Shown: in pieces, positions 1 to 40,988 of the stretch
Layout: each line of letters starts with the position of its first letter
How positions within the stretch are numbered: position 1 is the first letter of the stretch
Virus record (IMG/VR): IMGVR_UViG_3300023271_000005
Location: 1 to 40,988 of that record
Source: a virus
Direction: 5' to 3' (one strand)
DNA length: 40,988 nt
Notes under the pieces: model-generated
What the model was told of the DNA's origin: nothing
What the model saw: only the letters and a program-made list of their open reading frames with translations
Databases searched by the model: none
Translations under genes and position numbers: made by a program

Positions 1-143
1 GGCCGCGGGGTGGGGGGGCGGGCGGGGCGGCGAGACCGTGCGTACCTCAGGGGCCGCGCAACCGTGGGAAGAGCCAGGACGCGTTCTCGCAGAGGGGTGG
101 GCGCGCCGTGCACAGGAAAGAGGGAGAGAGAGAGAGAGAGAAG
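1..143. repeat. Left copy of terminal direct repeat
   Basis: Positions 1-143 align without gaps to 40846-40988. From 54 to 143 the match is exact. Mismatches are at 53, 37 and 35, with four more in the first 15 bases, so divergence is confined to the outer part of the left copy. The inner end is a GA microsatellite (124-141). The repeat is non-coding and GC-rich. It is either a true terminal repeat of a linear virion genome or the overlap of a circular assembly. Confidence 0.9.
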
Positions 144-205
144 AGGGGGGGTGGAGAACACGGAGAAGAACGAGGCGGCGAGACCGCGCGGACCCGGCCC
201 AGAGG

Positions 206-227
206 GGGTGATAGCCCCTAAGTGGGC
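206..227. repeat. GGGTGATAGCCCCT motif, copy 1
   Basis: This is a 22-bp motif beginning GGGTGATAGCCCCT and ending GGGC, with a GCCC/GGGC dyad. It recurs at 1709-1730 with 20 of 22 bases identical. Both copies lie about 65-70 bp downstream (plus strand) of a GA microsatellite and on the far side of a leftward terminator. The function is unknown; a recognition site for packaging or replication is possible. Confidence 0.6.
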
Positions 228-262
228 GAGGCGAGCAAGGCGAGTCACTGTTATTTTTTCAT

Positions 263-298
263 AAAAAAAATGGCGCCCGGGGAGAACCCCCGGACGCC
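263..298 (-). terminator. Rho-independent terminator after the DUF932 gene
   Basis: Reading leftward, a GC-rich hairpin (272-298; outer GGCG/CGCC and inner CCGGGG/CCCCGG pairings with small bulges) is followed by eight T residues (A-run at 263-270 on the plus strand). It lies 18 bp beyond the stop of the DUF932 gene, so it should end that leftward transcript. Confidence 0.85.
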
Positions 299-316
299 GC
301 GCCAACCGTGTTCCGG

Positions 317-1477
317 TTAGCAGTTGCCGAGTTTCCAACTCGCGACATCAGCAACCAACTGGCGGCCGATCTTGTCAGCGCGGGCCCGGTCCTGGGCCGA
401 GTCTCCAAACTGTGCCGAGTTGAACCGCGACTCTTCCGACTGACACTCGCGCGTGTGGTCCAGGACCTCCGTGATGGCGTTCAGTCCGCGCCACACGGTG
501 CCTTCTCCTCCGTGCACCTGGACGCCGCGCCCGTTGCGCCACGCCTCAACACAGGAGTCAACGATGCGCTGGTACTTGGGCTGCCCGTACTTGTCCGGGT
601 CCAGGTCAGGCAGTTGGAATACCGCCTGTGCCATCTTGATCATGCCGTCCAGGTTCATGCCAGTTTCTTGCATGGCTTGCCACGCCGCGAGGTTCTCCGT
701 GAATCCCTCCGTGCTGGCCTTGATCAGGGCACGCGCTTGATCCAGGCGACTGTTGACGCCTGAGGTGTGCTTCATGGACAGGCCACGCGCCTTACCCGCG
801 TTGGTCGCCATGGTGAGAGTGTTTTGGCAAACCACGCGGATACCCGTGGGGAGAATCCGCACCGCCGCGCTCCCGTCATGTGAGGTGGTCAGGAGGAGGT
901 GTTGTTCAACGGTGTCGTCCTGTTGAACCTCGCCGGACCCGCTGGCCTTGGCCAGGATCCACACGCGCTTGCCTCCGTGGATCGCCCCGGCTGCCTCCAG
1001 GTGCGCGACTCCCTCGTCCAGAAACGGTTGAAAGAAGTTGAACGCGGCCGCATTCGACAGTGGCGTGTACTCACTCCCGACAACTCCCAGGCGCCTGCCG
1101 TTGTCCGACCGGAGAATCTGCTGACTCTCCGCGTCCAGGTAACGGCCGTCAAACTTCACACCTTCGACACCGATCGCCGCGCGCTCCAGGGCCGCGCGGA
1201 GTTTGGCGTTCTTGTCCAGTGATTCGTTAACGGGGACAGGTGTCCCGTCCACACCGAAGATCCACTCTGAACCGTCAGGCGCAACCTGGACCGTGCTGTT
1301 GTCCGGCGCGCTCCCCAAGTCAGCGCACATGGGGACAGTAACGGGTTCCCAATCCAGGCCCGCCAGTCGGATCCCTTCTTCAATCGTGGGGGGCGCGTCG
1401 AGCACCGTCCCAATCTTGTGCCATGCTGGAGTATGCGTAAAGAACGCATCTCCGTGTGATTCAATACCGTGCGACAT
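317..1477 (-). CDS. DUF932 / phage-plasmid-like protein
   Basis: 386 aa. The sequence resembles the DUF932 / TIGR03299 phage- and plasmid-like family: an N-terminal AWHKIGTVLD-type segment (about residues 18-27), a central GKRVWILAKA segment and a later GIRVVCQNTL segment with the conserved Cys and Asn. The biochemical role of this family is not established; members occur on phages and plasmids, often among early genes. The start is supported by AGGAAAGG upstream of ATG. The gene has its own predicted promoter (1527-1554), a leader hairpin (1500-1519) and a terminator (263-298), so it appears to be a single-gene transcription unit. The family call is from recognised motifs, not from a database search. 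Confidence 0.85.
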   Translation of the reverse strand: MSHGIESHGDAFFTHTPAWHKIGTVLDAPPTIEEGIRLAGLDWEPVTVPMCADLGSAPDNSTVQVAPDGSEWIFGVDGTPVPVNESLDKNAKLRAALERAAIGVEGVKFDGRYLDAESQQILRSDNGRRLGVVGSEYTPLSNAAAFNFFQPFLDEGVAHLEAAGAIHGGKRVWILAKASGSGEVQQDDTVEQHLLLTTSHDGSAAVRILPTGIRVVCQNTLTMATNAGKARGLSMKHTSGVNSRLDQARALIKASTEGFTENLAAWQAMQETGMNLDGMIKMAQAVFQLPDLDPDKYGQPKYQRIVDSCVEAWRNGRGVQVHGGEGTVWRGLNAITEVLDHTRECQSEESRFNSAQFGDSAQDRARADKIGRQLVADVASWKLGNC

Positions 1478-1499
1478 GGTAGCCGCCTTTCCTGTGTTG

Positions 1500-1519
1500 G
1501 GTTGACGGGATTGTCAACC
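1500..1519 (-). promoter_or_regulatory. Leader hairpin C at predicted +1 of the DUF932 mRNA
   Basis: A perfect 7-bp inverted repeat (GGTTGAC / GTCAACC, six-base loop) begins exactly where the transcript from the promoter at 1527-1554 is predicted to start. It ends 22 nt before the ATG. It shares placement with the other leader hairpins of the leftward genes but lacks their GGCA-loop-TGCC core. A DNA operator is an alternative reading. Confidence 0.6.
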
Positions 1520-1526
1520 TGCCTCA

Positions 1527-1554
1527 ATGGTACAGGACCTGACGGCCCTGTCTA
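1527..1554 (-). promoter_or_regulatory. Sigma70-like promoter for the DUF932 gene
   Basis: On the minus strand: -35 TAGACA (1549-1554), 16-bp spacer, -10 TACCAT (1527-1532). The predicted start falls near 1520, immediately before hairpin C. Confidence 0.55.
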
Positions 1555-1708
1555 GGCCTGTCCCGGGTTTATCTAAGAGAAAATGTGGCGCCATTCGGAG
1601 ACTGATATTGATCGGAGAATGGGACAGAGAGAGAGAGAGAGGCCCCGGATCGGGCGCCGAGGTCGGACCTGCCCGGCCCGCCGCGAGGCCGGGGGGGCCA
1701 AGCCATCA

Positions 1709-1730
1709 GGGTGATAGCCCCTTATTGGGC
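1709..1730. repeat. GGGTGATAGCCCCT motif, copy 2
   Basis: Second copy of the 22-bp motif at 206-227, differing at two bases in the loop-like centre. It directly abuts the A-run of the terminator at 1731-1766 and follows a GA tract at 1626-1641, so the local arrangement of copy 1 is repeated. Confidence 0.6.
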
Positions 1731-1766
1731 AAAAAAAAGTGGGCCGCCATGTCGGAGCATGGCGAC
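1731..1766 (-). terminator. Rho-independent terminator after the small leftward gene
   Basis: Leftward, a hairpin with stem GTCGCCATG / CATGGCGGC (one G-U pair, six-base loop; 1743-1766) is followed by CCAC and eight T residues (A-run 1731-1738 on the plus strand). It lies about 22 bp after the stop codon at 1788. Confidence 0.8.
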
Positions 1767-1787
1767 CCTTCGCGGACAGGAGTCGGC

Positions 1788-2120
1788 CTAGTTGTCGACG
1801 TGGTTTTGGATCATGTCGTCGATTTGCTTCCTGTTGAAGTCTCTGAAGACCGGAGAGTACAACCGCAGACGGTTCACCAGTCGGTCGATGTCTTCATTGA
1901 GTTGAGTCTCGACAGCATTCTGCATGTCGTTACCCGTGACAGGTTCCAAACCCGGACGATCTGCTGCTGGCATGTCTTCGTCGTTCTGCACTGCAATCAT
2001 GAATTCAAGACTCATGGCCTCACGCGTGCAGTTGACCACTTCGAGCGAGTATCGCTTCCATCGCTCCTGTTGCGCGCTGGTCATGTTGGTCCAGATCGTG
2101 GTAATGGGGTCTCGTGACAT
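1788..2120 (-). CDS. Small acidic protein of unknown function
   Basis: 110 aa, beginning MSRDPITTIW. An upstream in-frame extension of 33 residues is possible, but the ATG at 2120 is preceded by ACAGGACATAAA, a leader nearly identical to that of two early genes near the right end, so this start is preferred. The protein is rich in Asp, Glu, Asn and Gln with a predicted helical middle (segment around WTNMTSAQQERWKRY). No domain is recognised. It follows hairpin B and ends before the terminator at 1731-1766. Confidence 0.65.
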   Translation of the reverse strand: MSRDPITTIWTNMTSAQQERWKRYSLEVVNCTREAMSLEFMIAVQNDEDMPAADRPGLEPVTGNDMQNAVETQLNEDIDRLVNRLRLYSPVFRDFNRKQIDDMIQNHVDN

Positions 2121-2148
2121 TTTATGTCCTGTTCTTTTCGAGTCTGTC

Positions 2149-2176
2149 GCGCTGGCGGCACCATTGCCGCCAGCGC
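2149..2176 (-). promoter_or_regulatory. Leader hairpin B
   Basis: A perfect 12-bp inverted repeat (GCGCTGGCGGCA and its complement) with loop CCAT. It lies 28 nt upstream of the ATG at 2120 and in the gap after the stop at 2191. The inner core GGCA-CCAT-TGCC is identical to that of hairpin A, while the outer stem differs but still pairs. There is no T-run, so it is not a terminator. A promoter in front of it (GACAAT at 2182-2187 as -10) is only weakly supported because no good -35 is visible. Confidence 0.65.
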
Positions 2177-2190
2177 ATCCTATTGTCTCG

Positions 2191-2520
2191 TTACGAGCGC
2201 AGCAGTCGGTCGAGTACACCTTCCACTTTGGTCAACTGCGCTCCGACCTCGTCAATTTCGGATTCGATCCCATCCACAGCGGTGGATGCGTCTGCTGCAC
2301 TCTCCTGCGCGGCGTCTGCTGCGCTGGTAGCATCGGAGTAGTCGATCCCGGTCAACCGTTCTAATGCTTTGGCTACCACGATGGCCATGCCTTCGATCTC
2401 ACTGCGAGAGTCCAGACATTCCTGATTCTGGCATGTCTCCTCCGGTCCGCCAGCATTGGTTTCCAATGCTTCCCGAATGATCGTACAGATCATGTCAACT
2501 TGTTCCGCGCTCAGTCTCAT
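2191..2520 (-). CDS. Small coiled-coil-like protein of unknown function
   Basis: 109 aa from MRLSAEQVDM. The ATG at 2520 has AGGAG seven bases upstream, so the longer in-frame start is not used. The C-terminal half is Ala/Ser/Asp-rich with heptad-like spacing of Val, Ile and Leu (about residues 70-105), suggesting a coiled coil. The N-terminal half has two cysteines (CQNQEC, about residues 30-35). No family is recognised. It is the first gene behind the promoter at 2566-2594 and is divergent from the capsid gene. Confidence 0.7.
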   Translation of the reverse strand: MRLSAEQVDMICTIIREALETNAGGPEETCQNQECLDSRSEIEGMAIVVAKALERLTGIDYSDATSAADAAQESAADASTAVDGIESEIDEVGAQLTKVEGVLDRLLRS

Positions 2521-2540
2521 AGCAAAACTCCTGTCAATCG

Positions 2541-2558
2541 GTTGGCACCATTGCCAAC
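2541..2558 (-). promoter_or_regulatory. Leader hairpin A at predicted +1
   Basis: A perfect 7-bp inverted repeat GTTGGCA / TGCCAAC with loop CCAT. Its right edge (2558) is the predicted first transcribed base of the promoter at 2566-2594, and it ends 20 nt before the ATG at 2520. It shares the GGCA-CCAT-TGCC core with hairpin B. Confidence 0.7.
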
Positions 2559-2565
2559 ACAATCA

Positions 2566-2594
2566 AAGTTACTGGACCCTGGTCGGGGTGTCAA
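2566..2594 (-). promoter_or_regulatory. Leftward sigma70-like promoter A
   Basis: On the minus strand: consensus -35 TTGACA (2589-2594), 17-bp spacer, -10 TAACTT (2566-2571). Predicted start is about 2559-2558, at the foot of hairpin A. It would drive the small genes at 2520 and 2120. Confidence 0.65.
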
Positions 2595-2842
2595 TACCCT
2601 ATTTTGAAGATTGACCCTGATTTTTCGGAGACTCCGCGAGCACCATCGGATCACCCCTAGGGGATCCACCGATTGCATCTGGAGTATCGCGAGGAGATCG
2701 ACCAGGCCCCCAGGCCCCCCGGCCCCCCCGCGGGGGAGGGCCCACGATCATAGGTCCCCATGCAAAAATATTTTCAGGATTTTCGACAACCCCCTTGCCT
2801 GTTTACTGGTGTTGTGAAGAATACGGGTAGGACAACTCTGTA

Positions 2843-2870
2843 TTGGCCCTGTTAGCGCCGAGCCTATACG
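2843..2870 (+). promoter_or_regulatory. Weak candidate promoter for the rightward structural block
   Basis: -35 TTGGCC (2843-2848), 16-bp spacer, -10 TATACG (2865-2870), each matching four of six consensus bases. It is the best candidate I see ahead of the capsid gene, but it is weak, and late genes may use an activator or a promoter I cannot recognise. Confidence 0.3.
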
Positions 2871-2957
2871 GAGCCCTACTCCGCAGCCCTGAGAGGGACA
2901 ACTGCAACCGCTGCTCTGGCGCGTAAGTAGTTTCTTTTTAGGACAAGGAGTTCCCTT

Positions 2958-4145
2958 ATGGCAAGTGGAACCTATGGCGGCTGGCCTATAACTGGTGCTT
3001 TACCTCCAGTGGCTGGCGCGGCGGAGCATGGTTATGCCCGTTGGATTGCCCAAAAGTTCATTGACACTCTCTACCTCAAGGCAATGCAAACGGAATCCGA
3101 TCTGGAGCGTTTGGTTGGCCGTGAGGACATTGACGGCAACCCCATTCTGATTGATGCGCTCAAGCCGATCACCACAACGGCGGCCCAAATCGCCGCTGAC
3201 ACCGCGGGCACTTTTGGCACCTTGACTACTGAAGGTTTGAGAAAGGACAGGGCTCGCTTTGCGCTCCTCAAAGAGGCTGGGATCCCCACGGAGCAGCGTC
3301 AAATGCTGCCAGCGTTCTTCGATTACATGTTCTATGTGGACCCACGGGACAAGGCTGCACTCAACCGCAAGTTTGATCCGACAGGTCAGTTCCTCACAGC
3401 CGTTCTTGCTTCGTTCAACATCCGCAAGGACGCTGTGATTCTGGGTGCGCTCGACTCCAATGTCACCGTTATGAACAATGATGACGGTCAACAGACTGGA
3501 TCAGCCACCACTTTCGCCAATGACGGCGGAACTGATGTGGCCCTCGCGTTTGGTGCTAAAGGGTATGATATTTCGACTGGTGCTACCTACGACATGCGCA
3601 CAACAGGGGCCTCTGAGTCTCCCACATTGGCGTCCGGCGACATCTTGTCTGGCCTGGGCCTCACGGTCAAAAAACTCATCGAGGCTCGCAGGGCTCTCCA
3701 TGCCAGCAATGCCATGTACTCAGGCTCAAAGCCGATTTGCGTCATGCACCCACAGCAGTTGCACCAGTTGTTGGCGAACGAAGATTCGGTCGTCAATGCT
3801 GACTACAATGCCGTGAAGCCGTTGGTGACTGGCGAGATCAGTCAGTTCCTGGGCATGGACATTGTGGTGACGAACAGCATTCCGACTTTGGCTAATACGA
3901 ATGTTGACCTCATTGGAGGCGCGAGCGTCGAAGTGATCGCTGACGGGCAATATGCCTATGTGTTCATGCCGGACACCCTGTACTACGGGAGCAGTGGCGT
4001 GGAGACCAAGGTGGACATCCTCCCCGAAAAGGGCCACACCATGCAGGTTGCGTCTTACATGCATTCCGGCGCTGTGCGTCTTGACGGTGCGAAGGTTGTT
4101 CGCATTGCTTGTTCCGACACGGATCAAGTTGTGGCCTCCAACTAA
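2958..4145 (+). CDS. Major capsid protein
   Basis: 395 aa. Size, first position in the structural block and sequence style (N-terminal helical arm, charged RKDRARFALL segment, later substrate-like GTGATYDMRTTG region and C-terminal KGHTMQVAS segment) fit a phage coat protein; I place it tentatively with HK97-fold capsid families of podoviruses. AAGGAG lies seven bases before the ATG. The stop overlaps the next gene's start (TAATG). The scaffold-like gene expected beside it is instead on the opposite strand at 29115-29756. Confidence 0.75.
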   Translation: MASGTYGGWPITGALPPVAGAAEHGYARWIAQKFIDTLYLKAMQTESDLERLVGREDIDGNPILIDALKPITTTAAQIAADTAGTFGTLTTEGLRKDRARFALLKEAGIPTEQRQMLPAFFDYMFYVDPRDKAALNRKFDPTGQFLTAVLASFNIRKDAVILGALDSNVTVMNNDDGQQTGSATTFANDGGTDVALAFGAKGYDISTGATYDMRTTGASESPTLASGDILSGLGLTVKKLIEARRALHASNAMYSGSKPICVMHPQQLHQLLANEDSVVNADYNAVKPLVTGEISQFLGMDIVVTNSIPTLANTNVDLIGGASVEVIADGQYAYVFMPDTLYYGSSGVETKVDILPEKGHTMQVASYMHSGAVRLDGAKVVRIACSDTDQVVASN

Positions 4146-5372: not shown

Positions 5373-6467
5373 ATGGCGACAAAGACCTTCCTTTGGACTT
5401 TGGACGGCTCTAGTTCAGATGCTCTCACAGGCCCTTCCCTGAGCACTTTATTTGCTTCGGGTGTCAGCATACATCGAGTTCGTGCCAAGAAGTCCTCTTC
5501 TGGTGGCAGTTTCAAGTTCAATCTAGAATGCTCCGCTGACAAGAGCGGTATGTACGCTGGGGTTGAACTCATGCACGACTTCAATCCTATTAATCTAGTG
5601 AATGAACTAACTGACGGAGACGACCTTGTAGATATACCGAACTCTATTACGGGGGTCAGTAATGTCTCAGATGTCGGTAACGAGCCGGAGTGGGTAGACA
5701 ATGGTGACTTCATTAGCGGGCCAACGGTAGATTTCCTGACTGGTGGTGGGGACAGACGGGTAGTTCTAGGGGCTCCGGTCCCGTCCTTTGCTGCGGGGGA
5801 GCCGTTTTCTATTGCCGTGGTTATTGACAATGGCAACAACAGCAACCGCCCCTTTGTCGGTAGCGATGTGGGGAGTGGGACATACGCATCAATGTACGGC
5901 AATGCGGGCAGCCGCAATATGAAGATGCAGGATGAGTCAGGGAATGTCATCCAAACAGCCTCTAACAGTAGCACGAACTTCAAAAACAAAGACATACACA
6001 CCGCCGTGAGGTTGTCGAATAATCGTGTTAGTTGTTGGCGGCGTGGCGGCAAGATTATTGATGCTTCCGCCCTTTCCGGGACCTTCTCCCCTTCAGTTAT
6101 TGGTAATGCTCAAGAAGGTAGTTCTTGGAATGGCCAACAAGCAAACATAACACGGGTGCTTATTTCTGATTACGATTGGACTGATACAGATCGTGAGGAT
6201 GTTGAGGCATGGCTTGCTTGGGAGTACGGGCTACAAACAAGCGGCAACTCCTATCTGCCCAGCACCCATTATGGCTACCAATCAGACCCCCGCTCTTCCA
6301 AGACGCAAGCACTTACAGCAGATGCTGACCTGAGTTCCTTGGGGGCGGACACATGGAGCGGTTACTACGCAGTGAGTACCACAACGATATCCGGCCAAGT
6401 CGATGTTTTTGTGAAGGAAGCCTATAAGGCTGGTGAAGTCACTATTGAGTTTACGGTGAGTTACTAA
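5373..6467 (+). CDS. Lectin/LamG-like tail or fibre protein
   Basis: 364 aa. AAGGAGG lies just before the ATG. The central part (about residues 90-290) reads like a concanavalin A-like jelly roll: FSIAVVIDN, a conserved Asn/Gly-rich turn region, ITRVLISDYD, then the characteristic C-terminal DVEAWLAWEYGL motif seen in phage glycan-binding domains. It probably binds surface glycans as part of the fibre or tail. The stop overlaps the start of the repeat-rich fibre gene (TAATG), suggesting coupled translation and joint assembly. Confidence 0.6.
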   Translation: MATKTFLWTLDGSSSDALTGPSLSTLFASGVSIHRVRAKKSSSGGSFKFNLECSADKSGMYAGVELMHDFNPINLVNELTDGDDLVDIPNSITGVSNVSDVGNEPEWVDNGDFISGPTVDFLTGGGDRRVVLGAPVPSFAAGEPFSIAVVIDNGNNSNRPFVGSDVGSGTYASMYGNAGSRNMKMQDESGNVIQTASNSSTNFKNKDIHTAVRLSNNRVSCWRRGGKIIDASALSGTFSPSVIGNAQEGSSWNGQQANITRVLISDYDWTDTDREDVEAWLAWEYGLQTSGNSYLPSTHYGYQSDPRSSKTQALTADADLSSLGADTWSGYYAVSTTTISGQVDVFVKEAYKAGEVTIEFTVSY

Positions 6468-9400
6468 TGGCTATATCAGTTGTAACCCCCTCACTTGCTA
6501 ATGTTACTGGCAGGGCTGGCCTTACTGGCGGATTTCCCGGGGGTATATCTGCTGATGCAACTTTTGAACTCGATCTAGACTGCCAAGTGGGCGACCTTGT
6601 GTTGGTCACTTATGGACTCAAAAGAAATCCTACTGGAACGACTGACAGCACCCCTATGGAGGGGACTGGCAAGGGGATTACTTCAGGTACGGCGAGTAGG
6701 CAAACCCTATCGTCCTTTCGGTGGGATCTTGCTGGGACGGATTTCCCCCACGAATACACCCCTACAGGGGCAGGCAATAGGCGTTGCTTCATAGGGGCAT
6801 ACCTCTTCGTCGTTACCGCCGCTGATCTCACGGGCAGCAATCTGGTCATAAAGTATAACTCTGTAAACAACCACCGTTGCAATGCGGCAATTTACGCGTT
6901 CCGTGGGGCCGATGTCAGTGCTGCCGCAATGACTAACTATATTGACGACCAGATGCCAGAGACTGAGTTGGGTGTCAGTGCTACAAGTTCCAGCGTCATG
7001 GCCTGGAGGCCGCCAACAGTAACTTTGATGTCCACCACTTGGTATTCCGCGAACATTACTGGCGAACACCAAATAGTGGCTGTTGGATTATGCCATAGGG
7101 GTGGTGGTTGGGATGCTCCAGACCCGCCCGTGACAAATTGGTCGAGCCTGTTTAGCGGCCCGGAACTTAATGGTGGCGGCCAATCCCATGTAGCGATCAC
7201 CCGCAACTTTGCCTCGTTTGCTGCCACTGAAATGGACAGCCTTTCGACCGACGATACTGCTTCTGGCAACATAATGAATTACAGCCACTGGTTGGTCCTA
7301 GAGCCAGCGGCGGGGACCAATGCCTGGACCAGAACCTTTGAAGACACATCAAATTCCTCAAGCACCAAGACCTTCACAGAAGACACTTTTGCCCACACCG
7401 CAGACTTCAAAGAGTTTTCTAACGCCTCAAGCACCAAGACATTCACAGAGGACACCTTTGCTCACGCCGTAGACCTCAATGACTTCTCCAACGCTTCAAG
7501 CGCTAAGACATTCACAGAAGACGCACTTACTCACACAAGATCTTTTGGTGCCACAGCGGATTCTTCGGGAGATCGCACCTTCACCTCGGTTGGAGTCCAT
7601 ACCCGACCGTTCACAGACGGCTCAACCGCTTCCGAGGATTTCACCCTCGTAGAGGACGCACTTGCCCACACCAGAGACCTCACTGCGACCGTCAACGCTT
7701 CAGCCACCAAGACATTCACAGAGGACGCTCTTTCCCACACAAGATCTTTCGCCGCCACAGCGGACTCTGCGGGCGACCGCACTTTCACATCAGTCGGGTC
7801 TCACGCCAGAGATTTTGCTGCCACCGCAGATGCTTCAAGCACTAAGATTTTCACAGAGGATGCACTTGCCCATGCTGTAGATTTCAAAGAGTTTTTCAAC
7901 GCTTCAAGCGCTAAGACCTTCACAGAAGACGCGCTTACCCACACCGTAGACTTCAAAGAGTTTTCTAACGCCTCTTCCACCCGAGTCTTTACTTCGGTCG
8001 GGATTCACGCTAGAGATTTTGCCGCCACAGCAGACTCCTCAGCCACCAAGACATTCACAGAAGACGCACTTACTCACACGAGATCTTTCGTTGCCACAGC
8101 GGACTCATCAGCCCCCCGGACATTCACAGAGGACGCTCTTTCCCACACGAGGTCCTTTGCCGCCACAGCAGACTCGTCAGATCCCAGAACCTTTACTTCG
8201 GTCGGGGTCCACACTAGAGACTTCACAGCCACCGCAGATTCCTCAGACCCTAGAACATTCACAGAGGACGCTCTTTCCCACACGAGGTCCTTTGCCGCCA
8301 CAGCAGATTCGTCAGACTCTAGAACCTTCACAGAAGACGCACTTGCTCACACTGTAGACTTTAAGGATTTCTCTAACGCCGCATGTATTAAGACATTCAC
8401 AGAAGACGCACTGGCTCACACCGTAGACTTCAAAGAATTCTCTAACGCCGCATGTATTAAGACCTTCACAGAAGATGCACTTACCCACACCAGATCTTTC
8501 GTTGCCACAGCGGACTCATCAGACCCTAGAACATTCACCACTACGGGAGTCCACGCTAGGGACTTCGCCGCCACAGCAGTCTCATCAGATCCTAGAACCT
8601 TCACAGAAGACGCTCTTGCCCATACGAGAGATTTCGCCGCCCTTGCAGATTCCTCAGAGATTCGGACCTTCACCACTACGGGAGTCCACGCCAGAGATTT
8701 CGCCGCCACAGCAGACTCGTCAGACCCTAGAACATTCACGGAAGACACCTTTGCCCACACCGTAGACTTCCAAGAGTTTTCTAACGCTTCAGGCACTAAG
8801 ACATTCACAGAGGACGCACTTACTCATACCAGCCGCCCTTCAGACCCTGCAAGTGCTCAAGACGACAGAACCTTTACTCATACGCCAAGTACAACGGTCC
8901 ACACTAGGGACTTTAAGGAGTTTGCCGGGTCGGCGGACACTCCAACCTTCACAGAGGATGTCCTTGCCCACGCCATAGACTTCAAGGAGTTTTCTAACGC
9001 TTCTACCGTGAAGGCGTTTGTCGAGGCCGATGAGCCAACAAACCACCTTCGGCCCCAAGCCGATAGGATTGAAACGACAGCCGAGCCGACCTTTACTTAT
9101 GTAGAGTATGTCTCCGTAGCGTGGACATTTGAGGCGTTTGACGGAGGTGATTCCGGGGACTCGCAAAACCTTGGCAGGTCGATCTCGATACTCACCTCAG
9201 GCTCGACAATTGACGATTATGAACCAATCCACTTCTCGTCTCGGGTATTTGAGGACGGGGGGTCTGGAGCAGACGACATAACAGCATCGTATGTTTATGC
9301 GGACTCTGCCAATGCCACAGATGCTGTTGTTTTCCATTTGACAATCGTGTTAACATCCGAAATGCTCGGAAAAGGTATATTAGTGGGTGGGTCTCCTCCT

Positions 9401-10087
9401 TCCCTGCTAATGGAGAGGGAAGCCTTGGCTCTCTTAGAGATCTACAATACAACCTTGAACGCCCTGGGCGTGGGGACTCTTAGCGATTTGGACGATACCA
9501 GCCCCCAGGCCACAATCCTGAACAATGTCTGGGCTTCGTTCCGGATGCAGTTCCTTGCGGACTACTCGTGGAATGGGGCAAAGAAGAGTGTTGCCCTTTC
9601 TCGATTACAGGATTATCTGGATGTTGATGTCACCCCCCCAGGGCGGTGGTCATACGCTTACGCTCTGCCAGAGGACTATTTGAGGGTTCTGCGTATAAAT
9701 GGACATGAACGATACAACGCCACTCAGTCGCACCTACAAAATGCCTTTGAGATCGAAGTGATAAATTATGCGAACGCATTGGCGACTACATTAGATAAGC
9801 GGTGCCTCCTGACAGACGAGTCCGGGGCTATCAACCTGGAGTATATCTTTGATCCAGGAGACAATGGGATTGACCTCTTGGGGGCTAAAACAACCCATGC
9901 CTTAGGGTTGTCCTTCGCTCATTATGTAGCACGGAACTTTGGCAAAACTCCACAAGAGATCGTAGTCCTTGCAGATGACTCGCGCAGAGCGATCTCTGAT
10001 GCGAAGGGCGTGGACGGACAAGAGAAGACACAAAGGCTTCGCCCTGACATGAACATTCTTGAAAGTAGGTCCTGGTGGCGTGGTTAA
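6467..10087 (+). CDS. Repeat fibre protein fused to tail tubular protein A-like domain
   Basis: 1206 aa in three parts. Residues about 1-285 form a beta-rich head. Residues about 300-848 hold 24 tandem modules of mostly 22 or 23 residues built around FTEDALTHTRSF or FTSVGVHAR. A linker follows, then from about residue 982 to the end a domain resembling T7 gp11 (tail tubular protein A): an ALLEIYNTTLNALGVGTL helix pair, WSYAYALPEDYLRVL, and a late RNFGKTPQEIVVLADD helix. In T7, gp11 is a separate 196-aa ring protein between portal and gp12; here a gp12-like gene follows immediately. Internal in-frame starts exist (GTG 9383 after GGAAAAGG; ATG 9410), so a free gp11-like product is possible. The C-terminal homology is my recognition of pattern, not an alignment. 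Confidence 0.7.
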   Translation: MAISVVTPSLANVTGRAGLTGGFPGGISADATFELDLDCQVGDLVLVTYGLKRNPTGTTDSTPMEGTGKGITSGTASRQTLSSFRWDLAGTDFPHEYTPTGAGNRRCFIGAYLFVVTAADLTGSNLVIKYNSVNNHRCNAAIYAFRGADVSAAAMTNYIDDQMPETELGVSATSSSVMAWRPPTVTLMSTTWYSANITGEHQIVAVGLCHRGGGWDAPDPPVTNWSSLFSGPELNGGGQSHVAITRNFASFAATEMDSLSTDDTASGNIMNYSHWLVLEPAAGTNAWTRTFEDTSNSSSTKTFTEDTFAHTADFKEFSNASSTKTFTEDTFAHAVDLNDFSNASSAKTFTEDALTHTRSFGATADSSGDRTFTSVGVHTRPFTDGSTASEDFTLVEDALAHTRDLTATVNASATKTFTEDALSHTRSFAATADSAGDRTFTSVGSHARDFAATADASSTKIFTEDALAHAVDFKEFFNASSAKTFTEDALTHTVDFKEFSNASSTRVFTSVGIHARDFAATADSSATKTFTEDALTHTRSFVATADSSAPRTFTEDALSHTRSFAATADSSDPRTFTSVGVHTRDFTATADSSDPRTFTEDALSHTRSFAATADSSDSRTFTEDALAHTVDFKDFSNAACIKTFTEDALAHTVDFKEFSNAACIKTFTEDALTHTRSFVATADSSDPRTFTTTGVHARDFAATAVSSDPRTFTEDALAHTRDFAALADSSEIRTFTTTGVHARDFAATADSSDPRTFTEDTFAHTVDFQEFSNASGTKTFTEDALTHTSRPSDPASAQDDRTFTHTPSTTVHTRDFKEFAGSADTPTFTEDVLAHAIDFKEFSNASTVKAFVEADEPTNHLRPQADRIETTAEPTFTYVEYVSVAWTFEAFDGGDSGDSQNLGRSISILTSGSTIDDYEPIHFSSRVFEDGGSGADDITASYVYADSANATDAVVFHLTIVLTSEMLGKGILVGGSPPSLLMEREALALLEIYNTTLNALGVGTLSDLDDTSPQATILNNVWASFRMQFLADYSWNGAKKSVALSRLQDYLDVDVTPPGRWSYAYALPEDYLRVLRINGHERYNATQSHLQNAFEIEVINYANALATTLDKRCLLTDESGAINLEYIFDPGDNGIDLLGAKTTHALGLSFAHYVARNFGKTPQEIVVLADDSRRAISDAKGVDGQEKTQRLRPDMNILESRSWWRG
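7363..9009 (+). repeat. Coding tandem repeat array in the fibre gene, 24 units
   Basis: Twenty-four in-frame units, mostly 66 or 69 bp, encode alternating module types (FTEDxLxHTxxF and FTSVGVHxR or FTTTGVHAR, each followed by ATADSS- or EFSNAS-type linkers). Many units share long identical stretches, such as ACATTCACAGAGGACGC. The pattern suggests amplification and shuffling by recombination, and predicts a long beta-structured shaft of variable length. Confidence 0.9.
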
Positions 10088-13456: not shown

Positions 13457-14014
13457 ATGAGCACTGAAGATGTGTCTGATTTCGCGAGTGGGTATGCGAC
13501 TACATTCGCCCCCGCGTTGACAAGTGCCTACGCCGCAGGGCTCACAGGCGCCACAGCCTTCAGCACCGCGTTTGCTGCTGCTGGCCCGGTCGGCCTTGTT
13601 CTGGGGGCACTCTCCGCCTTGTCTGGCCGCAGTAAGCGGAGAAGGGCACGGCGGGCAGCGGCGAAGAAACTCGCCCAACAGAGAGTCGAGAGTCGTGGAG
13701 CGGCTCGGGGGATTGGGCGGCAGGGCCAACAAGCAGTGGGAGGGGTGGTGGCTAGTGCTACCCAATTCGGCGGAACTCTGTCGGCTGGAATGTCGCAAGG
13801 AGTTATGGGCAATGTATTCCTGGAGCAGCAACGGACAATGCAGCGGGTAGGCTTGTCTGTCCAGAGCATGGCGAAGGCGCGTGACAAGGCCCTGAGGAGG
13901 AAAGCCCTCAGGAAGGGATTGGGGCAGCAGCGGTTCAGGGGCAGCCAGGGTCAACATCCAGATAATCCTGTAACCAGGATGACCAACGCCACAGCACAGA
14001 AAGAGTGGGTATAG
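13457..14014 (+). CDS. gp14-like internal virion protein
   Basis: 185 aa. A hydrophobic Ala/Gly-rich segment at about residues 18-58 (TFAPALTSAYAAGLTGATAF, then GPVGLVLGAL) could cross a membrane. It is followed by a very basic stretch (SKRRRARRAAAKKLAQQR) and a helical C-terminus. Small size, membrane segment, and position between the nozzle protein and two giant proteins match T7 gp14, the internal core protein that forms the outer-membrane part of the ejection channel. The assignment rests on position and composition. Confidence 0.55.
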   Translation: MSTEDVSDFASGYATTFAPALTSAYAAGLTGATAFSTAFAAAGPVGLVLGALSALSGRSKRRRARRAAAKKLAQQRVESRGAARGIGRQGQQAVGGVVASATQFGGTLSAGMSQGVMGNVFLEQQRTMQRVGLSVQSMAKARDKALRRKALRKGLGQQRFRGSQGQHPDNPVTRMTNATAQKEWV

Positions 14015-32918: not shown

Positions 32919-33414
32919 TTGTCCGCCCCAGGCTAAACATTGAACCCCTCCCCGATCCGTCCCGGCCTCGACCCAACAGCCAACGGCCTAGTTCGTTCGC
33001 GCCTGCCCCATCCATAATCAACTCTATAGCACACGCTTCATCGCTATATGGAAAGAGTGAGAGCACCACTCTCTCGCCGTCCTTCACCTGCTCCACCCTC
33101 ACCTTGATTACCGTGTCGTGTTCTTTTCCGTCTATTCTCATAACCCCCCACTTATCCAGGGCACCCACAACTGGAGGGACATACCCGTGCTCGCCAATCG
33201 CATTGTCGCCAGTCCAGAACTCTATATGAGAACGGATGCGAAAGAGTTGAATGATACACATTATTGAACGGATTGCCCAGAGAGTGGAAGGCTCGCCGTC
33301 CCGCATGCCACGAGAGGCTCGTCGAGCGATCCTGCGAATCTCTGAAAACTCTCCGGGGCTGGCAATACTTGAGTCGCATGCCAGCCCCCAGAGAGCCGTG
33401 AGGAGGTGTTTCAC
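32911..33414 (-). CDS. Unknown protein upstream of terminase
   Basis: 167 aa if it starts at GTG 33414, 25 bp after the SSB-like stop; the open frame runs further upstream but would cover that gene. No good ribosome-binding site supports this start, so a downstream one is possible. The C-terminal half is a beta-rich domain (GVMRIDGKEHDTVIKVRVEQ and VVLSLFPYSD) ending in an Arg/Gly-rich tail. Position suggests a possible small terminase, but no DNA-binding domain is visible. Confidence 0.5.
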   Translation of the reverse strand: MKHLLTALWGLACDSSIASPGEFSEIRRIARRASRGMRDGEPSTLWAIRSIMCIIQLFRIRSHIEFWTGDNAIGEHGYVPPVVGALDKWGVMRIDGKEHDTVIKVRVEQVKDGERVVLSLFPYSDEACAIELIMDGAGANELGRWLLGRGRDGSGRGSMFSLGRTNA

Positions 33415-38251: not shown

Positions 38252-38548
38252 CTACTCCTTGTCAAACCGGGACAGGCCCCGTAGCCGTGCAAGGGCCTTA
38301 TCGGGCAAGTCCGCCACGACTTCACCGCCACGCCTAACGGTCACCCTTGCCATCGTCTCTACCCACACGGTAGCCCCACAGGGCAGCGGGTGACCCGGTT
38401 GCGAAACTATCCGGCTTACTCCATGTATCTCTACCTCGTCACCCTTATGGTTGGCCTTAGATGTCTTGCATGTCAGTGCCGGATCCGTCTTCCCGTGCTT
38501 CTTGTTCGACTTCACCACATGTTGGTTTACATGAATGCGCTTCAGCAT
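38252..38548 (-). CDS. Conserved phage protein of the KRIHVNQH type
   Basis: 98 aa from ATG 38548, one base after the upstream stop with GGGGG behind it. The sequence MLKRIHVNQHVVKSN, then CKTSKANHKGDEVEIHG and PLPCGATVWVET, matches a small conserved protein I recall from many phages and metagenomes with no known role. It is beta-rich and basic at its start. Confidence 0.65.
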   Translation of the reverse strand: MLKRIHVNQHVVKSNKKHGKTDPALTCKTSKANHKGDEVEIHGVSRIVSQPGHPLPCGATVWVETMARVTVRRGGEVVADLPDKALARLRGLSRFDKE

Positions 38549-39041: not shown

Positions 39042-39536
39042 TTACCCCTCCCATTCTTGCAGCGTCTCAAGGATCCACTCGCCCAGACCCTCCGCGGTGT
39101 TGGAGTTCCTCCGGTCTTTGTCCCAGACAATCGCCTTGTCGTTCTTCCAGCCCCAGGAGTGGTACAGGACCAGTTCCCCTCCCATGTAGGACAGGCGAAC
39201 AGTGGGCCCGCCACAGGTGATCAGCACCTCAAACCCGGCCACCTCGAACTCTGGCACGATCCTCCCCACGCGCCCAGGTCTTGCTTGCCCGTGTCCCTGC
39301 TTCCGCTTATACCACACGGTCAGGTCAAGTTGCTGATTCAGCCAGTCGCCCAGGTCAGCCAGTTCCACACCCTCTTGCCCGGGCTCTCGCCCGCCCTCTT
39401 CCGGGTAGGCCAGGAACTCGCCCGCGTTCTCGTCGAACCAGATGCGGCCAGCCCTGAGCCCTCCCAGGACTTCGCCCAGTTCATCCGCTTCTTTCCGTAT
39501 ATCAACATAGCCCGCAGGCATTGTCCGCTCAGTCAT
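39042..39536 (-). CDS. Early protein of unknown function
   Basis: 164 aa from MTERTMPAGY; the longer frame upstream crosses the leader hairpin and promoter and is rejected. AGAGGACAAA precedes the ATG, the same leader as the gene at 40388. Acidic first half (Glu/Asp-rich), then a beta-rich part with LITCGGPTVRLSYMGGEL and VLYHSWGWKN. No family is recognised. It has its own predicted promoter (39598-39626) and hairpin D. Confidence 0.65.
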   Translation of the reverse strand: MTERTMPAGYVDIRKEADELGEVLGGLRAGRIWFDENAGEFLAYPEEGGREPGQEGVELADLGDWLNQQLDLTVWYKRKQGHGQARPGRVGRIVPEFEVAGFEVLITCGGPTVRLSYMGGELVLYHSWGWKNDKAIVWDKDRRNSNTAEGLGEWILETLQEWEG

Positions 39537-39564: not shown

Positions 39565-39591
39565 GCGGCCAGGGCACCGTGCCCCAGCCGC
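39565..39591 (-). promoter_or_regulatory. Leader hairpin D at predicted +1
   Basis: A 27-bp dyad: outer GCGGC/GCCGC, a CA/CA internal loop, inner GGGCA/TGCCC and loop CCG. Its right edge (39591) is the predicted +1 of the promoter at 39598-39626, and 28 nt separate it from the ATG, the same spacing as hairpin B. Confidence 0.7.
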
Positions 39592-39597
39592 ATGCAC

Positions 39598-39626
39598 ACC
39601 GTCTCATGCCCTGCCGCCCGTGTCAA
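39598..39626 (-). promoter_or_regulatory. Leftward sigma70-like promoter D
   Basis: On the minus strand: -35 TTGACA (39621-39626), 17-bp spacer, weak -10 GACGGT (39598-39603). It sits in the 97-bp gap after the stop at 39634. Support comes mainly from the consensus -35 and its consistent placement before hairpin D. Confidence 0.5.
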
Positions 39627-39633
39627 GGGCTCT

Positions 39634-40149
39634 TCAGGGTCTTTCTGGATATTTCCGAACGGGTATCTCTACCTCCTCCGCGACGATCAAACCGCTCGAC
39701 AGTCTCGGGATCACATAACCGTCCAGGGTCCAGCCCGCGTTATCGGCGCCCTCTATCACGATTCCATCTTCCCCGTCCCTGGCGCTGTAGTTTGACGGCA
39801 GGTACTGTTGAACCGTGCGGAGATCCGCGGCCAGCCCGCCCGTCACGATTGCACGGCGCATCTCTCCGATCACCTCCCCGTCTATCTCGAACAGGGGCGG
39901 CGCGTCACTCCCGCGGATATCCTCCACCGTGAGCAGGAACCCGTAACCACGATGCCAGTCTCTCTCGCGCTCAGTCATGCCCTCCCAGGGCAGGGCCCAG
40001 TATCTCAGGCCGTCCTCCGCCGGTAGGTTTGTCGCAAGCCTGCACTTGGTACCCGCCGGGATCGTGGCCACCTTTCCATAGGGCGCCGCCTTGTACTCCA
40101 CTGCCTCGGGGAGAATGTGCACAGCGTAGGGGTCGCGTAGGTTTGTCAT
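39634..40149 (-). CDS. Conserved early protein of unknown function
   Basis: 171 aa; ATG 40149 overlaps the previous stop and AGAGGTGAAC precedes it. The core RYWALPWEGMTERERDWHRG then YGFLLTVEDI resembles a small protein I recall from phages and plasmids, with no known function. Beta-rich and acidic overall. Second gene of the right-end early operon. Confidence 0.65.
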   Translation of the reverse strand: MTNLRDPYAVHILPEAVEYKAAPYGKVATIPAGTKCRLATNLPAEDGLRYWALPWEGMTERERDWHRGYGFLLTVEDIRGSDAPPLFEIDGEVIGEMRRAIVTGGLAADLRTVQQYLPSNYSARDGEDGIVIEGADNAGWTLDGYVIPRLSSGLIVAEEVEIPVRKYPERP

Positions 40150-40388
40150 CAGTTCACCTCTTTCTGGTAATCGTCAGTGTGTGCCACGATGGGGCACAGG
40201 TTTACATATTCATTCTTCGGGGGGTTGTTCGGCCCCAGTATCCCGGCGCGTCTACGGAAACAGTCGCCGCCTTCTCGCGAGGGGCCCATGTACTGCCACT
40301 CCTCCAGGTAATCTCCGATCGTATCGGGGGTGCCGTTCCAGCCCAGGCACCGGGCCAGGCGTTCCCATAGTTGTTGGGTTGGCATCAT
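40149..40388 (-). CDS. First gene of the right-end early operon, unknown
   Basis: 79 aa, starting with two Met codons (MMPTQQLWER) behind AAGAGGACAAA. It contains helical segments with several Trp residues and two to three cysteines. It is directly behind promoter E and hairpin E, so it is probably among the first phage proteins made. No family is recognised. Confidence 0.65.
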   Translation of the reverse strand: MMPTQQLWERLARCLGWNGTPDTIGDYLEEWQYMGPSREGGDCFRRRAGILGPNNPPKNEYVNLCPIVAHTDDYQKEVN

Positions 40389-40403: not shown

Positions 40404-40430
40404 GTGGCCTCAGCACCATGCCCTGGCCAC
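40404..40430 (-). promoter_or_regulatory. Leader hairpin E at predicted +1
   Basis: A 27-bp dyad, the same length as hairpin D: outer GTGGCC/GGCCAC, short internal loops and an inner GCA-CCA-TGC core. Its right edge (40430) coincides with the predicted start of the promoter at 40438-40466. It ends 15 nt before the first ATG. Confidence 0.65.
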
Positions 40431-40437
40431 ACAAACA

Positions 40438-40466
40438 ACCCTACAGTACGCCCACAGGCCTGTCAA
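40438..40466 (-). promoter_or_regulatory. Leftward sigma70-like promoter E (early operon)
   Basis: On the minus strand: -35 TTGACA (40461-40466), 17-bp spacer, -10 TAGGGT (40438-40443). It is the first promoter of the long leftward block running to 26.5 kb. Confidence 0.65.
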
Positions 40467-40845: not shown

Positions 40846-40988
40846 GGCCGTGTGGTGCGTGGGCGGGCGGGGCGGCGAGGCTGTGCGTACCTCAGGGACC
40901 GCGCAACCGTGGGAAGAGCCAGGACGCGTTCTCGCAGAGGGGTGGGCGCGCCGTGCACAGGAAAGAGGGAGAGAGAGAGAGAGAGAAG
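40846..40988. repeat. Right copy of terminal direct repeat
   Basis: Matches 1-143 without gaps, exactly from 40899 onward, with seven mismatches in the first 53 bases. It ends in the GA microsatellite at the contig edge. Confidence 0.9.

Follow-up and report, generated by a model that had tools for sequence, protein, structure and literature searches.

Emory, Bouvet and Belasco in 1992 and Bricker and Belasco in 1999 are said to have described the 5'-terminal stem-loops that stabilise the ompA and papA mRNAs. The gene 10 leader of phage T7 combines a T7 RNA polymerase promoter, a 5' stem at +1 and a strong ribosome-binding site (RBS). Stabilising 5'-terminal stem-loops of the ompA and papA type have been reviewed, and a 5' hairpin added to bla mRNA stabilises that message and impedes RppH (PMC3997798). 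In cluster K mycobacteriophages, non-structural genes are preceded by Start-Associated Sequences (SAS), a conserved 13-bp GGGATAGGAGCCC located 3 to 7 bp before starts, and by extended SAS (ESAS), in which an inverted repeat precedes a conserved RBS-like sequence, with a consensus that varies among related phages (PMC3203893). A role for the ESAS as an mRNA hairpin found little support, its departures from the consensus not being pairing-preserving (PMC3203893).

Here, we analysed a 40,988-bp IMG/VR phage record (IMGVR_UViG_3300023271_000005; the window, meaning this whole stretch of DNA) and a relative, G001, which together carry nine hairpin leaders. Like ompA and papA, these leaders have a stem that is predicted to start at the mRNA 5' end, with the RBS downstream; unlike them, they are repeated before several unrelated genes with a conserved apex. 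With T7 gene 10 they would share a hairpin at the first transcribed base of a phage mRNA, followed by an RBS, but the T7 case is a single leader behind a T7 RNA polymerase promoter, whereas several copies occur here behind sigma-70-like promoters. SAS and ESAS, as reiterated leader elements with inverted repeats, are the nearest description; in contrast to those elements, departures keep pairing here and the repeat lies at a fixed distance from the promoter. The SAS sequence GGGATAGGAGCCC was itself absent from the leaders of the window and G001, where the start strings were GATTGGAG (eight in G001) and GAGGACAAAATG (two in the window). The principle of a 5' stem-loop is known, and its reuse on unrelated genes with a conserved loop appears to be a variant of it.

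Family searches of the window proteins identified a portal (Head-tail_con, PF12236), a capsid (Phage_capsid_2, PF19821) and a terminase. Similar portals and capsids occur in isolated phages, pelagiphages among them, at an identity of ∼25 to 31%. Terminase, portal and MCP scans of IMG/VR yielded G001 (38,910 bp) as the single relative, with 70 to 72% identity to the window in the portal, 70% in the terminase and 59% in the capsid, and with nucleotide matches mostly of 65 to 77%. Megablast of the window's first 20 kb against phages gave no match, a terminase scan across bacterial genomes gave distant matches only, and an exact search with the relative's hairpin returned itself and one other contig only. 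The window ends in a near-exact (95%) direct terminal repeat of 143 nt (1 to 143 and 40846 to 40988; mismatches confined to the first 60 bases), so the leftward genes of the two ends probably lie next to each other in a genome that is circular or terminally redundant. Elsewhere in the window, a perfect 23-bp inverted repeat occupies 9605 to 9627 and 13951 to 13973, 4.3 kb apart, and the gene at 6467 to 10087, whose product is likely a tail or fibre protein, contains many degenerate ∼23-residue repeats (FTEDALTHTRSF..) at 7330 to 9010.

Three leaders (LD, LC and LB) stand at the left end:

2566 to 2594, minus strand: LD promoter, TTGACA (2594-2589), 17 nt, TAACTT (2571-2566)
2541 to 2558, minus strand: LD hairpin GTTGGCAATGGTGCCAAC, GUUGGCA-AUGG-UGCCAAC, 7-bp stem, first base at the predicted +1
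2191 to 2520, minus strand: LD gene, 109 aa, no Pfam or PHROG match, upstream RBS ACAGGAG
2149 to 2176, minus strand: LC hairpin GCGCTGGCGGCAATGGTGCCGCCAGCGC, 12-bp perfect stem, apex as in LD, intercistronic
1788 to 2120, minus strand: LC gene, 110 aa, no family match
1741 to 1768, minus strand: terminator of the LD-LC operon, 11-bp stem, T8
1527 to 1554, minus strand: LB promoter, TAGACA, 16 nt, TACCAT
1500 to 1519, minus strand: LB hairpin GGTTGACAATCCCGTCAACC, GGUUGAC-AAUCCC-GUCAACC, at the predicted +1, lacking the conserved apex
317 to 1477, minus strand: LB gene, DUF932 protein, 386 aa
272 to 298, minus strand: terminator of the LB unit, 12-bp stem, T8

A first-pass annotation had placed the predicted +1 of the promoters at 2566 to 2594 and 1527 to 1554 on the first base of the hairpins at 2541 to 2558 and 1500 to 1519, 20 to 22 nt before the ATG. 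Reading the minus strand, we recovered this geometry: 7 nt separate the -10 from the hairpin in both LD and LB, and the ATG follows 20 nt past the hairpin in LD (at 2520) and 22 nt past it in LB (at 1477). The third annotated hairpin, with its 12-bp perfect stem at 2149 to 2176 upstream of the LC ATG at 2120, was also confirmed, as was the core it was said to share with the hairpin at 2541; the 12-mer GGCAATGGTGCC common to LD and LC has two copies in the contig, both at these sites. No -35/-10 at matching spacing was found for LC (best hexamer TCGACC, -10 slot GAGACA). LB matches the other leaders in position and structure, not in its loop.

The remaining leaders lie at the right end of the window (R1 and R2) and in the relative (G1 to G4):

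40438 to 40466, minus strand: R1 promoter, TTGACA (40466-40461), 17 nt, TAGGGT (weak -10)
40404 to 40430, minus strand: R1 hairpin GUGGCC-AG-GGCA-UGG-UGCU-GA-GGCCAC, at the predicted +1
40149 to 40388, minus strand: R1 gene, 79 aa, no family match, start-associated GAGGACAAAATG
39598 to 39626, minus strand: R2 promoter, TTGACA (39626-39621), poor -10 (GACGGT)
39565 to 39591, minus strand: R2 hairpin, two U-G wobble pairs, loop CGG, near the predicted +1
39042 to 39536, minus strand: R2 gene, 164 aa, no family match, start-associated GAGGACAAAATG
G001, 4602/4567: -35-like hexamer/hairpin of G1
G001, 3244/3209: -35-like hexamer/hairpin of G2
G001, 2310/2274: -35-like hexamer/hairpin of G3

The four G001 leaders belong to the leftward unit left of the capsid gene. 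G1 to G3 are near-identical copies, and the G4 hairpin lies near a TACAAT box upstream of the G001 DUF932 gene. The annotation had further proposed a common leader device for the leftward genes, and leaders with conserved pairing were indeed found in both phages; the device is not universal, since no hairpin accompanies two further leftward promoters of G001 (near 3817 and 38460) and the LB loop is not the conserved one. LC is intercistronic rather than at a promoter. The two hairpin-less promoters make the device frequent, not obligatory.

The products of LD, LC, R1 and R2 matched nothing in Pfam or PHROG and lacked a homologue in G001, and only the DUF932 protein (28% identity) stands behind leaders in both phages. 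With cargo mostly non-homologous between the phages, conservation of the leader exceeds that of the genes behind it. The start-associated RBS also differs between the phages, being GAGGACAAAATG at R1 and R2 and GATTGGAG in G001. The latter occurs at eight leftward starts (e.g., L025 4546, 4196, 3784, 3188, 2718, 2256, 1233; G001 position 38415) and resembles the SAS idea of cluster K mycobacteriophages.

A separate motif follows the terminators of both left-end units:

1712 to 1724, minus strand: post-terminator motif TWAGGGGCTATCA, after the terminator at 1768-1741
209 to 221, minus strand: post-terminator motif TWAGGGGCTATCA, after the terminator at 298-272

In G001, AGGGGCTATCA has four perfect copies and a GGGGCTATCA variant has one; each of them lies behind a leftward terminator (L025 17, 1450, 2423, 3374 and 3999; two copies are variants of TWAGGGGCTATCA). 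The motif also stands behind terminators in six IMG/VR contigs (L048, L049, L050, L051, L052 and L056), whose helicase is closest to those of Actinobacteria phages and in which no other kinship to the window was seen. Behind TWAGGGGCTATCA there is often a hairpin rich in G+C that includes AGGCTC. The motif was absent within 20 nt of T6 in 299 genomes of one bacterial phylum, and searches of the literature for AGGGGCTATCA or TGATAGCCCC found nothing relevant among the papers listed.

We quantified how regularly promoter and hairpin are spaced. In LD, LB, R1, R2 and G1 to G3, a -35-like hexamer precedes the 5' base of the hairpin by 35 to 36 nt; the hexamer is an exact TTGACA in LD, R1 and R2 (three of the four promoter-linked window leaders) and in G1. 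The +1, here a prediction throughout, falls on or near the stem in seven leaders. Promoter matches alone were at chance level (1 found versus 0.9 expected), so significance rests in the combination of promoter, hairpin, RBS and ATG. A loop-blind scan (TTGACA-like hexamer, 16 to 18 nt, -10-like hexamer, 6 to 8 nt, hairpin) returned LD (2594/2558) and LB (1554/1519) in the window. When the scan combined a TTGACA-like hexamer, a hairpin at 35 to 36 nt, an RBS, an ATG and an open reading frame of at least 60 codons, it returned seven distinct places in the window (LD, LB, LC, R2 and three coding) and five in G001, compared to means of 0.79 (window) and 0.53 (relative) in shuffled genomes, with a maximum of 4. 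The combined scan of phages HTVC010P and Baldr found no such leaders.

The hairpins share an apex but not their stems. The apex CA(A)YGGKG is common to eight of the nine (LD, LC, R1, R2 and G1 to G4), and stems differ among these eight. Because MAFFT on the full leaders misaligned the hairpins, we used hand-framed 23-mers; the resulting alignment covered six leaders in 23 columns, and in 7 of its 9 pairs both sides vary. At the eight positions nearest the apex, arms paired with their own partners in 91% of cases compared to 56% when swapped among leaders, although the seed sequences had been picked as hairpins and selection accounts for part of this signal. It is thus pairing rather than sequence that is kept, as in stems of the ompA type. 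The difference persisted without the two apex-proximal pairs (88% versus 46%); of 720 arm permutations, 2 reached the observed pairing, the true order among them; and the covariation score of 0.748 exceeded that of shuffled alignments (0.259; 0 of 500 as high) and of slid partners (at most 0.367). Since the hairpins had first been recognised as hairpins, we began a second analysis from the apex motif alone, for which the window has 41 occurrences and G001 has 32. Of these, the eight in leaders formed 6 to 8 of 8 pairs, and the other 65 formed 1 to 6, most of them 5 or fewer. A covariance model trained without LC recovered LC as its third-best window match (E = 0.0046). The annotation had pointed to homologous leaders in relatives as the place to look for conserved pairing, and in the one relative found, G001, pairing is conserved. 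The covariance model gave nothing convincing against distant DUF932 loci or the phage contigs sharing the post-terminator motif. As a side observation, a strong hairpin (GGGGCTGGCATG..GCCAGCCCC) in coding sequence beside the terminase (window 33355 to 33388, minus strand) is a partial match to the leader model at 17.7 bits.

In partition-function folding from +1 to past the ATG, the initial nucleotides were paired in all but one of the nine leaders, the Shine-Dalgarno sequence (SD) was 0.45 to 0.91 unpaired, and G1 had a competing fold. Thermodynamic z-scores of whole leaders were mostly modest (-0.7 to -2.8; LC, -5.3). Rfam gave no match at gathering score in the window. None of the left-end leader hairpins appeared in the terminator list for positions 1 to 3000, and the hairpin-to-ATG sequences of all nine leaders lack the T run after the stem that would mark a terminator or attenuator.

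We consider the leader hairpins real and probably functional, and hold with moderate confidence that they represent repeated use of one portable 5'-terminal RNA stem-loop, a module that would cap the mRNA end. Transcription from the TTGACA-type promoter is predicted to begin at the hairpin's first base, and the mRNA would therefore open with a closed stem, with a downstream RBS predicted to be unpaired in part or for the most part. Closure of the 5' end would most likely slow 5'-end-dependent decay (pyrophosphate removal, RNase E/J entry). The leaders thus probably protect or control their messages, and by analogy an ompA-like protection is plausible. Several points count against this reading: the carriers are two genomes, LB lacks the apex, two G001 leftward promoters are hairpin-less, z-scores are modest, the R2 -10 is poor, G1 may refold, and SD accessibility varies.

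The annotation had left the +1 dyad as either an RNA stem or an operator, and compensatory change by itself would fit a DNA palindrome as well as an RNA stem. We think it unlikely that the dyads are DNA operators at +1 through which a phage repressor or roadblock protein controls all leftward promoters jointly. The palindromes do overlap the predicted +1, the LB and LD half-sites are alike (GGTTGAC/GTTGGC), and the relative encodes a resolvase-type HTH protein (L026:17372-17893, PF02796). However, conserved symmetric half-sites were not found across the copies: they vary too much for one protein (GTTGGC, TGGCGGC, GGCTGGGGC, GTAGGTGGC, GCGCCC), and the G-U pairs in R1, R2, G1 and G4, as G-T positions in DNA, break its symmetry. 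In addition, what is conserved is a loop that lacks symmetry and always keeps to the mRNA strand, and LC places a hairpin and RBS between two cistrons without a promoter. These features favour an RNA device with a conserved loop over an operator.

Stability leaves the conservation of the loop unexplained, which suggests that some factor, most simply an RNA-binding protein, may read the apex. More doubtful still, in our view, is a loop that acts chiefly as a regulatory RNA site, one at which CA(A)YGGKG is bound by a protein of phage or host, or by an antisense RNA, to switch the unit's translation. The loop is conserved between phages while the stems are not, AUGG, UGG and AUGGG are not known as standard extra-stable loops, and a similar start-associated RBS recurs within each phage; yet family searches of the phage proteins gave no candidate RNA-binding protein, the RBS is not clearly sequestered, and Rfam offers no match. 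We also considered an upstream ORF from a loop AUG, which was rejected (R2 and LB have no AUG, frames and stops are inconsistent, and no SD precedes), and a CsrA-type site, likewise rejected, as the window loops lack GGA. Least of all do we credit an absence of function, with hairpins incidental to recently duplicated promoter cassettes in G+C-rich intergenic regions: G1 to G3 are near-identical and inverted repeats abound in such regions, but the loop stayed constant while stems diverged with compensation, the -35 spacing is constant in two phages, and the combination is rare in shuffles and absent from HTVC010P and Baldr.

mRNA-stabilising 5' stem-loops have so far been known singly. If the portable stem-loop reading is true, a phage lineage reusing one leader on unrelated genes would represent a natural modular 5' UTR. 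Tentatively, and with somewhat long odds, the CA(A)YGGKG loop might be what an as yet undescribed RNA-binding regulator of the phage recognises, with a hairpin leader added to each newly acquired gene to build a post-transcriptional regulon. The reuse of one leader would, if true, show a route by which new phage genes come under common post-transcriptional control.
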